The translations under genes and the position numbers were made by a program. Below the pieces are notes generated by a model. It had not been told where the DNA came from. It made no database searches and saw nothing but the letters and a program-made list of their open reading frames with translations. 64,000 nt of DNA, from assembly GCA_946548895.1 (NCBI GenBank), contig CAMNQF010000001.1, positions 141,024 to 205,023 on the forward strand. Reading direction: 5' to 3'. Source of the stretch: an uncultured bacterium. GTDB taxonomy: Bacteria; Bacillota; Clostridia; Oscillospirales; Oscillospiraceae. This document shows positions 17,559-24,370 of the stretch, piece by piece. The number at the start of each line of letters is the position of its first letter. Positions within the stretch are counted from its first letter, which is position 1.

Positions 17559-18185
17559 ATGCGGAATGAACACGCCCATGGCGTACAAGTAAGCGATACC
17601 AAAAATAAAATATTGGACAGTTGTCTCAGCTTGATGAGCAGGCGGTCGCTGAAGGAAATCAGGATCTCAGACATCTGTGCCGAGGCCGGCGTGACGACGG
17701 GAGCGTTCTACCACTATTTCTCCAAAAAGAGCGATATCATCCCGGAGCTCTACTGCCGGATCGACCGGGCGTTTACCGCTTTTTACCCAAAGCTTCGGGG
17801 CTCCTCCTGCCGGGAAAAGATTTCAGAATATCTCCTGCGGCACGCCAAATTTGCGGAGTCTTGCGGCTTGCAGCAGACCCGGAGCGTGTATTTTGAGCAG
17901 CTGGATTCGCAATATGGCTTTTTTGGAGATTTTAAACGGGGATTTGCGCACCACCTGCTGGAGCTTGTGGAAGAGGGGCAGGCAAAAGGCGAGCTGTCCG
18001 ATGAAAAAAGCGCGCAGGAAATCGCCACGGCTTTGATGAGCATTGAGCGGGGAGCCGTCTACTCCTGGTGCCTCACGGAAGGCGAGCTGTCCGCCAAGGC
18101 CCTCTCGCAAAAGCTGGTAGGAGCCTATCTGGGTTCGCTGGATTGCGTGGCTCAAGGCGTGGAACGCGGAAAGGAATCCGTATGA
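17559..18185 (+). CDS. TetR/AcrR family transcriptional regulator
   Basis: HTH ISDICAEAGVTTGAFYHYFSKKSDII. Confidence 0.9.
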   Translation: MRNEHAHGVQVSDTKNKILDSCLSLMSRRSLKEIRISDICAEAGVTTGAFYHYFSKKSDIIPELYCRIDRAFTAFYPKLRGSSCREKISEYLLRHAKFAESCGLQQTRSVYFEQLDSQYGFFGDFKRGFAHHLLELVEEGQAKGELSDEKSAQEIATALMSIERGAVYSWCLTEGELSAKALSQKLVGAYLGSLDCVAQGVERGKESV

Positions 18186-18769
18186 AAACGACAAGGCAGC
18201 TCCAGGCGGAGAATACGAAAAAGCGGATTGTGGCGCACTATCTGGATATCATTCGGGAACGTCCGGCCAGCGAGGTTAAAATTTCTGAATTGTGCAAGCG
18301 GGCCAACATTTCCGTGGGTACTTACTACTATTATTATAAGGATAAGGACAGCGTCATCCGGGACATTTACTATCATATCGACGAACGGTTTATTGAAATC
18401 TACAAAGCATTGCGCGCGGACTCCTATGTAGGCCGCATTTTGGAGTATATTACCTATACGGGCAAGGAGGCGCAGAACTATTACGGCCTGCGGGCCGCCA
18501 CAACGATCTACCAGCTCCAGATGAAAATTGAGGGGAGCTTCTTCCTGGATATCACCAGGCCGTTCAGCCAAAATCTTTGCAAACTGCTGAACGGCGCCAT
18601 TGCGGCCGGCGAATTGCGGCCCGGCCTGGATATCCGAGCCACCACATTGGACTTGCTGTGCATTTTCCGGGGAATCATCTACTCCTGGTGCCTGCTCAAG
18701 GGCGAGTTTGACGTCGAAAATATGATCCATACCACAGTAGCCGCCTATATGAACCACTTGCGCGGATGA
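18182..18769 (+). CDS. TetR/AcrR family transcriptional regulator (second, ATGA overlap with the first)
   Basis: HTH VKISELCKRANISVGTYYYYYKDKDSVI; start ATG at 18182 overlaps the preceding stop. Confidence 0.88.
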   Translation: MKTTRQLQAENTKKRIVAHYLDIIRERPASEVKISELCKRANISVGTYYYYYKDKDSVIRDIYYHIDERFIEIYKALRADSYVGRILEYITYTGKEAQNYYGLRAATTIYQLQMKIEGSFFLDITRPFSQNLCKLLNGAIAAGELRPGLDIRATTLDLLCIFRGIIYSWCLLKGEFDVENMIHTTVAAYMNHLRG

Positions 18770-20154: not shown

Positions 20155-20183
20155 TTGACAACTTGTTCTACAAGAGGTATACT
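20155..20183 (+). promoter_or_regulatory. Sigma-A promoter of small ORF unit 1
   Basis: TTGACA - 17 bp - TATACT. Confidence 0.85.
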
Positions 20184-20230
20184 TGCCCCGAACTGAGAGA
20201 TCATTCCAGCACGAAAGGAGGCGCTGAGAG

Positions 20231-20335
20231 ATGGACTTCAACAAGATCATCGAGGTCAAGCTGCTCTATAAGGACGAGAGCAAAATTGAGAACAGCGGGC
20301 TGCTGGGGTATTTGTGCCTCTGCGGGCTGAAATAA
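20231..20335 (+). CDS. Small ORF / leader peptide 1: MDFNKIIEVKLLYKDESKIENSGLLGYLCLCGLK
   Basis: AAAGGAGG RBS upstream, own promoter and terminator, C-terminal SGLLGYLCLCG shared with small ORF 2. Confidence 0.75.
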   Translation: MDFNKIIEVKLLYKDESKIENSGLLGYLCLCGLK

Positions 20336-20355
20336 GCCCATTGCCGGGATTCGGA

Positions 20356-20387
20356 CCGCCCCTCTGCGCAAGAGGGGCGGTTTTTTT
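20356..20387 (+). terminator. Rho-independent terminator of unit 1
   Basis: ccgcccctct-gcgca-agaggggcgg-ttttttt. Confidence 0.9.
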
Positions 20388-20428
20388 GCCCGGACAAAAA
20401 ATTCCACCTGTTTGATGAAAAAAAGGGG

Positions 20429-20457
20429 TTGACAACGCCCCTGAGAAGGAATATACT
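20429..20457 (+). promoter_or_regulatory. Sigma-A promoter of small ORF unit 2
   Basis: TTGACA - 17 bp - TATACT, same architecture as unit 1. Confidence 0.85.
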
Positions 20458-20502
20458 GGGCAACGCTGTTAAATGATTACACGATGAAAGGAGGCGCACA
20501 CC

Positions 20503-20610
20503 ATGACGATGATGACTGCCGCTAATTTGTGGGGCTTTGGGGCCAATGCTGCCTTTTGCCATAAGAAGAGTGGACCGTTGGGATATTTGTGCGCCTTTGG
20601 AATGGGATAG
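20503..20610 (+). CDS. Small ORF / leader peptide 2: MTMMTAANLWGFGANAAFCHKKSGPLGYLCAFGMG
   Basis: AAAGGAGG RBS, own promoter, C-terminal SGPLGYLCAFG shared with small ORF 1, terminator between it and the ABC transporter. Confidence 0.75.
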   Translation: MTMMTAANLWGFGANAAFCHKKSGPLGYLCAFGMG

Positions 20611-20639
20611 GATTCTCCTTTCCACACCGTTGGTTTGCC

Positions 20640-20670
20640 GCGTCCCTCTGTCCAGAGGGACGCTTTTTTT
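20640..20670 (+). terminator. Rho-independent terminator/attenuator immediately before the ABC exporter
   Basis: gcgtccctctg-tc-cagagggacgc-ttttttt, ending about 30 nt before the ATG at 20700. Confidence 0.88.
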
Positions 20671-20699: not shown

Positions 20700-22541
20700 A
20701 TGGAATCACACGTCAAGCTGTCCAGAAAGGACAAAATATCGCTTATCCTGCGCCATTTGGAGGGAAACTGGGGCTTTTTTGCCGGGGCAATCCTCTTGGC
20801 GTATATGAACACCATCTGCAACGCCATCATCCCGCAGATCATCAGCGTCACCGTGGACTCGGTGCTGGGGAGCGAGGCGCCCGACCTGCCCGGCTTCCTC
20901 CGGGCCCTGCTGCCCCTGGACCGGCTCCGCGCCGACCCCTGGGCCGCCCTCTGGACCGCGGCGGGGGCGGTGGTGCTGGCCGCCGCCATTCGGGGTGTGT
21001 GCATCTACGGAATGCGCGTCAACCTGGCCAAGGGTTCCGAGGGCTTTGTGAAAAAGCTGCGGGACAATCTGTACAGCCACATCCAGCGCCTGAGTTTTGA
21101 CTGGCACACCGCCCACGCCACCGGCGACATCATCCAGCGGTGCACCTCCGACGTGGAGGTCATCCGCACCTTTGTCTGCAACCAGCTGATGGAGGTGCTG
21201 CGCACCGTGTTCCTGATCGCGCTGTACACCGGCATCATGCTGGTGATGAACTGGAAGCTGGCCCTGGTGTCCCTGGCCTTTACCCCGGTGACGGGACTGG
21301 CCTCGGGGGTGTTTTACGGCAAAATCTCCGCCCGGTTCAAGGCCGCCGACGAGGCGGAGGGCGAGCTGACCACCTGCGCCCAGGAGAACCTCACCGGCGT
21401 GCGGGTGGTGCGGGCCTTTGGCCGGGAGAAGTTTGAGATCGACCGCTTCGCCCAGAAAAATAACCGCTTTTCCAACCTGTGGGTGGAGCTGGGCAAGGTG
21501 CTCAGCGTCTACTGGGCCTCCGGCGTGTTCCTGGTCTGCCTCCAGATCATGGCGGTAATCGTGGCCGGGTCCGTGGCGGCGGTAAACGGCGCCATTACCC
21601 TGGGCGATTTCCAGGCCTTCGTCATCTACAACAGCGCTATGGCCTGGCCGGTGCGCTCCCTGGGCCGGGTGCTGTCCGAGATGAGCAAGGCCGGGGTGTC
21701 CATGGACCGGGTGGGCTACATTCTCCAGGCGGAGGAGGAGTCCGACCGGCCCGCCGCCGGCCCCGTGAACCTGCGCGGTGATATCGTCTTTGACCACGTC
21801 ACCTTCGGCTACGAGGGGCAGGAGGTACTCCGGGACGTGTCCTTCACCATCCCCTGGGGGAGCACCTTCGCCATCCTGGGGGGGACGGGCTCGGGCAAGT
21901 CCACCCTGGTCCACCTGCTGGACCGCCTCTATGACCTGGGGGAGGGCCAGGGTTCCATCACCATCGGCGGGGTGGATATCCGGGACGTCAGCCGGGACAG
22001 CCTGCGCCGCCAGATCGGCCTGGTGCTCCAGGAGCCTTTCCTGTTCTCCCAGACCATCCGGGAGAACATCGCCGCCACCCGGCCGGACGCCCCGGAGGAG
22101 GAGCTGCGGGCCTGCGCCCAGACCGCCTGCGTGGACGAGGCCATCGCGGACCTGCCCAACGGCTATGAGACCGTGGTGGGCGAGCGGGGCGTGACCCTGT
22201 CCGGCGGGCAGAAACAGCGGGTGGCCATCGCCCGGATGCTGCTGCAAAACGCCCCGGTGATGGTGTTTGACGACTCCCTGTCCGCCGTGGACTCGGAGAC
22301 GGACGCCAAGATCCGCGCCGCCCTGAAGGAGCGCATGGCCCAGGCCACCGTCATTTTGATCTCCCACCGAATCACCACGCTGATGCAGGCCGACCGTATC
22401 CTGGTGCTGGACGGGGGACGGGTGGCGGATATCGGCGCCCACGGGGAGCTGACCGCCCGGCCGGGCATTTACAGGGAGATCTATGAAATCCAGATGAACA
22501 GCGACGACCGCGCCCTGGTGGAGGAAGGAGGGGAGGCATAA
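20700..22541 (+). CDS. ABC exporter half-transporter (TMD-NBD), multidrug type
   Basis: ABC TMD plus NBD: GGTGSGKSTLVHLLDRLY, VTLSGGQKQRVAIARMLLQ, VMVFDDSLSAVDSETD. Confidence 0.95.
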   Translation: MESHVKLSRKDKISLILRHLEGNWGFFAGAILLAYMNTICNAIIPQIISVTVDSVLGSEAPDLPGFLRALLPLDRLRADPWAALWTAAGAVVLAAAIRGVCIYGMRVNLAKGSEGFVKKLRDNLYSHIQRLSFDWHTAHATGDIIQRCTSDVEVIRTFVCNQLMEVLRTVFLIALYTGIMLVMNWKLALVSLAFTPVTGLASGVFYGKISARFKAADEAEGELTTCAQENLTGVRVVRAFGREKFEIDRFAQKNNRFSNLWVELGKVLSVYWASGVFLVCLQIMAVIVAGSVAAVNGAITLGDFQAFVIYNSAMAWPVRSLGRVLSEMSKAGVSMDRVGYILQAEEESDRPAAGPVNLRGDIVFDHVTFGYEGQEVLRDVSFTIPWGSTFAILGGTGSGKSTLVHLLDRLYDLGEGQGSITIGGVDIRDVSRDSLRRQIGLVLQEPFLFSQTIRENIAATRPDAPEEELRACAQTACVDEAIADLPNGYETVVGERGVTLSGGQKQRVAIARMLLQNAPVMVFDDSLSAVDSETDAKIRAALKERMAQATVILISHRITTLMQADRILVLDGGRVADIGAHGELTARPGIYREIYEIQMNSDDRALVEEGGEA

Positions 22542-24370
22542 TGGCCGCCATTGACGAAAAAGAATACACCCAAGCCTTTAATTGGTCCATTTGGAAGCGG
22601 CTGCTGCCCATTTTGGCCCGTTTCAAGGGGTATTTCGCAGGGATGATCGGGACGGCCGCCGTGTCTGATTTGGTGGACGCGGCGCTGCCCCTGTTCCAGA
22701 TGTATGCCATTGCCAGTTTCATTGAGGCGGGGACCCTGGACGGGCTGATCCCCTTTGCGGCGGTGTACGGGGCGGTGATCCTCTTTCAGAGCGTCCTGGT
22801 GGTGTTGAGCACCCGCTGCACCATGAAGATCGAAATGTATCTGGGCCGGGACCTGCGGCGGGACCTGTTCGAGCACTTGCAGCGGCTGTCCCTGTCCTTC
22901 TACAACGTCACCCCGGTGGGCTACCTCCTCACCCGCGTGACCAACGACACCAACCGCATTGCGGGCAATCTGGCCTGGGGCCTGCTGGACATGGTGGACG
23001 TGGTGTTCTATGTGGCCAGCACCTTCACCATCATGCTGCTGCTCAACTGGCAGCTGGCCCTGGTGGTCATGCTGGTGGTGCCCTTTGTGGCGGCGCTGAC
23101 GGGCTGGTTCCAGCCCCGCATCCTCCACTGGACCCGGAAGGTGCGCAAGATCAACTCCAAGATCACCGGCGCGTTCAACGAGGGCATCACCGGGGCCAAA
23201 ACCACCAAGACCCTGGTCATGGAGGATCAGAGCATCCGCGGCTTCCGGGACCTCACCGGCAGCATGAACCGCTCCGCCGTCCGGGCGGCCCGGCTCAACG
23301 CGGTGTATATCCCGGTGACGCTGTTTTTCTCTACCCTGACGGTGGCCATCGTGCTGCTGCGGGGAGGCTGGCTGGTGGAGGAGCAGGTGATGGAGATTGC
23401 CACCCTGTCCGCTTTCATCACCTATGCCATGAACATCTTTGAGCCCATTCAGAACCTGACGGGCAACCTGGCGGAATTCATCGCCGTCCAGGCCTCCATT
23501 GAGCGGGTCACCGGCCTTTTGGATGAGGAGCCCCAGGTTGCCGACACGCCCGGGGTTGTGGAAAAATACGGCGACTGCTTCCATCCCAAGCGGGAAAACT
23601 GGGAGCCGCTGAACGGGGAGATTGAGTTCCGCGACGTGACCTTCCGCTACCCGGACGGCGGGGACAACGTGCTGGAGCACTTTAACCTGAAGATTCCCGC
23701 CGGGTCCACCGTGGCCATTGTGGGGGAGACGGGGGCGGGCAAGTCCACCCTGGTCAACCTGGCCTGCCGGTTCTTCGAGCCCACGGAGGGCCAGATCCTC
23801 ATCGACGGCCGGGACTACCGGGAGCGCAGCCAGCTGTGGCTCCACTCCAACATCGGCTATGTGCTGCAAAGCCCCCACCTGTTCTCCGGGTCGGTCCGGG
23901 AAAATATCCGCTACGGGCGATTGGACGCATCCGACGCCGAGATTGAGGCGGCGGCGCGGGCGGTGTCGGCGGACAAGGTGGCGGCCAAACTGGAGCGGGG
24001 CTGGGATAGCGACGTCGGCGAGGAGGGCGACCGCCTGTCCACCGGCGAGAAGCAGCTGATTTCCTTTGCCCGGGCGGTGCTGGCTGACCCCCGCATCTTC
24101 GTGCTGGACGAGGCCACCTCCTCCATTGACACCCAGACCGAGCAGGATATCCAAAACGCCATCGACCACCTGCTGCAAGACCGCACCTCTTTCCTCATCG
24201 CCCACCGGCTGTCCACCATCCGCAAGGCGGACATGATCCTGGTAGTCAAGGACGGCCGGATCGTGGAGCAGGGCACCCACCAGTCCCTGCTGAGGGCACG
24301 GGGCTATTATCACGACCTGTACAGCAAGCAGTTCGCGGAGGAAAACGCGGCCAAGGTGCTGGGGGCGTAA
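22541..24370 (+). CDS. ABC exporter half-transporter (TMD-NBD), partner of the preceding gene
   Basis: GETGAGKSTLVNLACRFF, RLSTGEKQLISFARAVL, IFVLDEATSSIDTQTEQ; start overlaps the preceding stop. Confidence 0.95.
   Translation: MAAIDEKEYTQAFNWSIWKRLLPILARFKGYFAGMIGTAAVSDLVDAALPLFQMYAIASFIEAGTLDGLIPFAAVYGAVILFQSVLVVLSTRCTMKIEMYLGRDLRRDLFEHLQRLSLSFYNVTPVGYLLTRVTNDTNRIAGNLAWGLLDMVDVVFYVASTFTIMLLLNWQLALVVMLVVPFVAALTGWFQPRILHWTRKVRKINSKITGAFNEGITGAKTTKTLVMEDQSIRGFRDLTGSMNRSAVRAARLNAVYIPVTLFFSTLTVAIVLLRGGWLVEEQVMEIATLSAFITYAMNIFEPIQNLTGNLAEFIAVQASIERVTGLLDEEPQVADTPGVVEKYGDCFHPKRENWEPLNGEIEFRDVTFRYPDGGDNVLEHFNLKIPAGSTVAIVGETGAGKSTLVNLACRFFEPTEGQILIDGRDYRERSQLWLHSNIGYVLQSPHLFSGSVRENIRYGRLDASDAEIEAAARAVSADKVAAKLERGWDSDVGEEGDRLSTGEKQLISFARAVLADPRIFVLDEATSSIDTQTEQDIQNAIDHLLQDRTSFLIAHRLSTIRKADMILVVKDGRIVEQGTHQSLLRARGYYHDLYSKQFAEENAAKVLGA

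Follow-up and report, generated by a model that had tools for sequence, protein, structure and literature searches.

Tandem leader units upstream of an ABC exporter in an uncultured Oscillospiraceae bacterium as putative ribosome-sensing transcription attenuators

Here, we provide comparative evidence that two tandem promoter/uORF/terminator units, located directly 5' of the genes of a heterodimeric ABC exporter in an uncultured Oscillospiraceae bacterium, are each very probably a ribosome-mediated transcription attenuator, that is, an RNA switch sensing stalled ribosomes. The units span positions 20155-20387 and 20429-20670 of the window, the whole 64,000-nucleotide stretch of DNA analyzed, and the exporter genes follow at 20700-24370 (Table 1). 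Comparative sequence analysis and folding support the RNA pairings on which this reading is built, their covariation and their independence from the encoded peptide, and we infer from them that the pairings act in vivo and that ribosome-targeting drugs (antibiotics) are the signal.

Table 1. Features of the two leader units and the exporter genes, in window coordinates
Feature	Position	Strand	Basis
Promoter P1, TTGACA-17-TATACT	20155..20183	+	motif scan, 11/12 matches
Unit 1 segment 1, uORF1 Shine-Dalgarno AAAGGAGGCGC	20214..20224	+	
uORF1, 34 codons, MDFNKIIEVKLLYKDESKIENSGLLGYLCLCGLK	20231..20335	+	ORF reading
Unit 1 segment 2: 2a CTGGGGT, 2b GTGCCTCT, inside uORF1, codes LGYLC	20303..20321	+	1:2 pairing, full-length fold
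Terminator T1, segments 3 and 4 and U-run	20354..20387	+	hairpin -24.4 kcal/mol
Promoter P2, TTGACA-17-TATACT	20429..20457	+	motif scan, 11/12 matches
Unit 2 segment 1, uORF2 Shine-Dalgarno AAAGGAGGCGCACA	20487..20500	+	pairs with 2b; covariation, 40 sequences
uORF2, 35 codons, MTMMTAANLWGFGANAAFCHKKSGPLGYLCAFGMG	20503..20610	+	ORF reading
Unit 2 segment 2a (GGGATA, codes GY), predicted antiterminator 5' side	20575..20587	+	complementarity scan, folding
Unit 2 segment 2b (TGTGCGCCTTT, codes LCAF), putative anti-antiterminator	20588..20598	+	complement of uORF2 Shine-Dalgarno
Hairpin around uORF2 stop codon, apex of predicted antiterminator	20599..20623	+	folding
Terminator T2: segment 3 20640-20649, segment 4 20654-20663, U-run 20664-20670	20640..20670	+	hairpin -18.3 kcal/mol
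ABC exporter subunit A, 613 aa, BmrC/YheI-like, Walker B FDDS, degenerate site	20700..22541	+	
ABC exporter subunit B, 609 aa, BmrD/YheH-like, Walker B LDEATSSID	22541..24370	+	

RESULTS AND DISCUSSION

Two attenuator-like units precede an ordinary ABC exporter pair

The initial annotation had described two promoter/micro-ORF/terminator units in front of a heterodimeric ABC exporter, and both the parts of the units and their position relative to the exporter genes were confirmed (Table 1). The same RBS, AAAGGAGG, precedes both ORFs, and a scan of 2 kb returned three promoter-like sites where shuffles gave an expectation of 0.5. Nor do the units look like products of chance, as both are present in the sister species (G023), and a covariance model trained without unit 1 (R1) recovered that unit at an E value of 1e-9 in a search of the whole genome and the corresponding unit of G023 at 7e-11. 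No Rfam family matched the leader region at gathering score, and the locus had no match in plasmid and phage collections. Further upstream, two adjacent genes that read as TetR-type regulators (window 17559-18185 and about 18180-18769) sit before a lactaldehyde-reductase-like gene adjoining the exporter locus.

Both exporter genes have the ABC_membrane+ABC_tran domain architecture in a family scan, and the proteins are ordinary ABC exporters. Their unequal Walker B motifs (FDDS in subunit A, LDEATSSID in subunit B) suggest that this type IV pair forms a heterodimer. BmrC/YheI and BmrD/YheH are among the bacterial solved-structure (PDB) matches of subunits A and B; eukaryotic ABCB proteins score higher. 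Orthologs of subunit A are present in 32 of the 42 genomes of the genus and in other genera.

Comparison of the leaders was based on 42 regions upstream of orthologous ABC-A genes from the same genus and from other genera. Every leader has an RBS (AAAGGAGGCGCRCA or a close variant), a single uORF of 20-39 codons and a terminator that begins 10-84 nt 3' of the uORF stop codon, and a near-consensus promoter (TTGACA-N17/18-TATACT or a close variant) is found in 39 of them. All 42 leaders place a translatable short ORF with its RBS before an intrinsic terminator, the layout expected of an attenuator. This architecture is common to the whole set, whereas the encoded peptides are mostly unrelated.

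The uORF Shine-Dalgarno pairs with the 3' end of its own reading frame

The uORF Shine-Dalgarno AAAGGAGGCGCRCA (segment 1) pairs with the uORF 3' end UGYGCGCC (segment 2b) with strong covariation. The uORF 3' end is the reverse complement of the RBS region: an RBS flank of GGCGCACA goes with UGUGCGCC, one of GGCGCGCA with UGCGCGCC and one of GGCAUACAGGA with UCCUGUAUGCC. Across an alignment of 40 sequences (A2), 90.7% of cells in 1:2b plus the terminator were paired compared to 83.1% in shuffles, and 16 pairs had changed on both sides, with 0/500 shuffles as high. Cognate 1:2b duplexes beat permuted partners (z -10, 0/20,000; z -8 to -10 across tests), just as the real codons beat synonymous recodings (z -8.7), and partition-function folding of free RNA gave a helix probability of 0.65 versus 0.17 +/- 0.03 for synonymous recodings. 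Such values argue for a conserved and covarying anti-antiterminator.

Just upstream of 2b, the stretch GGGAU, which encodes "GY", is a complement of the 5' arm of the terminator (segment 3), as in the pairs UCUGGGAU/GUCCCAGA (L068), GAGGGAC/GUCCCUC (L079) and GCGGA/UCCGC (L033). In a window scan along the leaders, cognate-specific complementarity to segment 3 was strongest at this segment 2a (z -3.9), with weaker values in neighboring windows (z -3.3, -2.7 and -2.2) and z -7.5 for the true terminator pairing 3:4, which served as a positive control. When transcripts ending before segment 4 were folded by partition function, segment 3 was paired with segment 2 at a mean of 0.63 with the start masked, as by a ribosome, versus 0.09 in free RNA, and masked-start pairing was 0.25 +/- 0.03 in synonymous recodings (12 replicates). 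Window scan and masked-start folding are together consistent with an antiterminator that competes with the terminator 5' arm. This antiterminator is less certain than the anti-antiterminator, because the energies of isolated 2:3 duplexes showed no gain over synonymous recodings (z -0.9) and the cognate-versus-permuted test was modest (P about 0.007). Column-wise 2a:3 pairing is incomplete because the register shifts between lineages, and folding predicts little antiterminator in L055b, L059, L089 and L090. Since 2a lies inside the 1:2b loop, a 2a:3 helix would cross 1:2b, and the two states should therefore be mutually exclusive, barring a pseudoknot. Hairpins around the stop codon appear alike in other leaders when judged by eye, and those of L079 and L080 covary. 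Direct pairing of the Shine-Dalgarno with the terminator arm (1:3) was frequent in single folds, carried no cognate signal (z about 0) and was rejected.

We propose that these pairings form a switch in which segment 1 is the Shine-Dalgarno of the short uORF, segment 2 (2a and 2b) its 3' part, and segments 3 and 4 the arms of the terminator. Without translation, segment 1 would pair with 2b, closing the uORF start, and 3:4 would terminate transcription. Under fast translation, the ribosome would reach the stop codon just past 2b with segment 2 used or covered, and 3:4 would again terminate. If a translation inhibitor or initiation arrest kept a ribosome at the uORF start or close to it, segment 1 would instead be covered, leaving 2a/2b to pair with segment 3 around the stop-codon hairpin, so that no terminator would form and the exporter would be transcribed. 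Arrest at or near the start is thus predicted to induce, while arrest at GYLC is predicted to cover segment 2 and favor termination.

The shared peptide motif is probably a by-product of RNA pairing

Both peptides of the locus share SGxLGYLCxxG as originally quoted, but in-frame SGxLGYLC micro-ORFs occurred only in this genome and in the sister species among the 99 genomes searched, ruling out GYLC as a peptide family. A third genomic match to the pattern (C2:148081) was dismissed as chance, being a 51-residue stop-free stretch in a recombinase-like locus where no RBS-preceded start was found. A search of 250 family genomes with the uORF1 peptide matched its own genome only. In the uORFs of other orthologs, LRA, SRA, VCL or AAR take the place of the motif. 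GYLC is coded by GGGAUAUUUGUGC, which is segment 2a plus the start of 2b; a change of the Shine-Dalgarno flank from CACA to CGCA turns GYLC into GYLR. Translation runs through the element in all three frames (34, 6 and 2 leaders), and the peptide therefore cannot be the conserved object. On this comparative evidence, the shared motif is best read as a by-product, the translation of RNA segment 2, whose letters are needed for pairing with the RBS and the terminator, with codon choice rather than peptide apparently encoding both pairings. A stall at GYLC had been suggested as the inducing event, a role that is not upheld here, as GYLC appears to be the translation of the antiterminator GGGAU and the anti-Shine-Dalgarno UGUGCGCC rather than a conserved arrest motif.

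The predicted switch is weaker and less clear in unit 1 than in unit 2, with the 1:2 pairing of unit 1 present in the full-length fold but not in the truncated free fold. Between G000 and G023, uORF1 (window 20231-20335 versus L055) shows 8 synonymous and 2 nonsynonymous codon changes, compared to 5:5 in uORF2 (33 codons counted) and 97:56 in subunit A for the same species pair. From this small sample, the 8:2 ratio gives a hint of amino-acid constraint on uORF1. It is conceivable, though we regard it as rather unlikely, that the units sense different things, with unit 2 a peptide-independent detector of start arrest and unit 1 a site of peptide-specific arrest, so that the operon would have two serial attenuators, each with a promoter of its own.

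Alternative explanations

For the locus as a whole, it is very improbable that a drug makes the ribosome stall at GYLC of the nascent peptide and so blocks terminator folding. Such peptide-specific arrest would fit a motif common to both peptides and the hint of constraint in unit 1, but the motif is missing from the uORFs of other orthologs, its letters covary with the Shine-Dalgarno flank in an element read in three frames, and a ribosome parked at GYLC would cover segment 2 and so block the antiterminator. We give equally little credence to an amino-acid-starvation attenuator of the trp/his type, sensing charged tRNA. Its logic and layout are alike, and a Met-rich version exists in Oscillospiraceae MAGs, where it seems to precede an importer of the MetN type; in the exporter uORFs, however, the N-terminal parts show neither a codon run nor one prevailing residue (enrichment is about 2.2- to 2.6-fold for F, K and N, none of which reaches 10%), and the regulated gene here is an exporter.

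That the ABC pair exports the uORF products as secreted signals or RiPP-like precursors, an alternative raised in the initial annotation, is scarcely credible. Small ORFs do adjoin an exporter, but this reading is unsupported because the peptides are unrelated between species, even in front of orthologous exporters; the exporter matched no peptidase, NHLM or RiPP exporter model above cut-off, and the pairing depends on which codons are used, not on the peptide. It is also quite unlikely that the locus simply makes two small terminated RNAs, constitutively or as decoys, with the exporter expressed by read-through or under another signal such as a protein-binding attenuator or riboswitch. The terminators are strong and the lack of an Rfam match leaves room for another ligand, yet the conserved element coincides precisely with the Shine-Dalgarno and the 3' end of the uORF, and therefore points to the ribosome as the sensor. 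We thus retain the ribosome-mediated attenuator as the preferred reading.

Relation to known attenuators

The proposed mechanism shares its regulatory setting with bmrBCD of Bacillus subtilis, in which the BmrB uORF leads bmrCD (PMC4191407), and the analogy drawn with it at the outset, that of leader-controlled attenuation of an ABC exporter, gains support from the comparative RNA evidence. In both systems, a short uORF 5' of a heterodimeric multidrug ABC exporter goes together with a terminator and alternative stem-loops. BmrB (53 aa) has its terminator within the ORF (PMC4191407), a trait absent from the leaders here, where it follows the stop codon; in the present leaders, moreover, the uORF Shine-Dalgarno also serves as an arm of the putative anti-antiterminator, and the units are in tandem. 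The vmlR leader of B. subtilis (PMC9226507) shares the anti-antiterminator/antiterminator/terminator logic and a peptide sequence tolerant to change, with SL-2 at the antiterminator apex where the stop-codon hairpin stands here. Its uORF has 3 codons as opposed to 20-39, its Shine-Dalgarno is single-stranded before SL-1 whereas here the uORF 3' end closes on the Shine-Dalgarno, and its regulated product is an ABCF protein rather than an exporter (PMC9226507). Mutually exclusive 1:2, 2:3 and 3:4 pairings gated by ribosome position are common to trp/his-type attenuators, from which the exporter uORFs differ in having no regulatory codon run; the Met-rich leaders described below would be of that type. 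The ABC-leader portion of a premature-terminator survey (PMC2965389) likewise includes predicted attenuators 5' of ABC transporter operons, among them a multidrug exporter example from lactobacilli; the architecture and lineage presented here are not described in that portion. We found no description of this leader type in the open-access papers searched.

Distribution and Met-rich relatives

Among the genomes searched, strong model matches came only from the genus, and same-type exporter leaders are present in further genera of the family too. A search of 291 genomes drawn across the class with the leader model (E <= 5e-4) matched only the source genome. Of the ABC-A homologs at about 62% identity or less, most have no leader, the exception being a weak but plausible analogue before a 44% ABC (L137). 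A further weak but plausible analogue with the same architecture, from another family of the order (L143:1211-1436), encodes a peptide containing VYLCASG and precedes an ABC exporter gene whose product has additional N-terminal sequence. Weak though plausible leader-like elements before a PF09818 ATPase (L141:1501-1633) and a GNAT-like protein (L130:193-327) may be of convergent origin.

A scan of genome contigs with the leader model returned 21 matches, five of which are Met-rich uORFs (MTHGYGMMMRGMDMAMMPMP...) in Oscillospiraceae/Ruminococcaceae records (L148, L152, L153, L155 and L156), with the same complementarity between Shine-Dalgarno and ORF end and a terminator. By reading, a MetN-like ATPase ORF lies just downstream in all or nearly all five; the one scanned (L156, 60 residues) had MetN as its best match (8.6e-20), and a family scan of putative downstream MetI and MetQ fragments, also called by reading, matched nothing. 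Three of the five were folded, and all three show the same predicted switch. The Met-rich pattern searched for was absent from the genus of the present locus. These leaders look like Met-codon attenuators, apparently preceding a MetN-type importer.

CONCLUSION

If the proposed mechanism is true, ribosome arrest would turn on exporters of uncultured gut Oscillospiraceae by way of an RNA element in which the uORF Shine-Dalgarno has a second role as a regulatory arm. The locus also cautions that a conserved micro-peptide motif can be the shadow of RNA pairing. Since this layout also seems to precede a MetN-type importer, a single module may have been reused for different inputs, with changes only in the codons between its arms.
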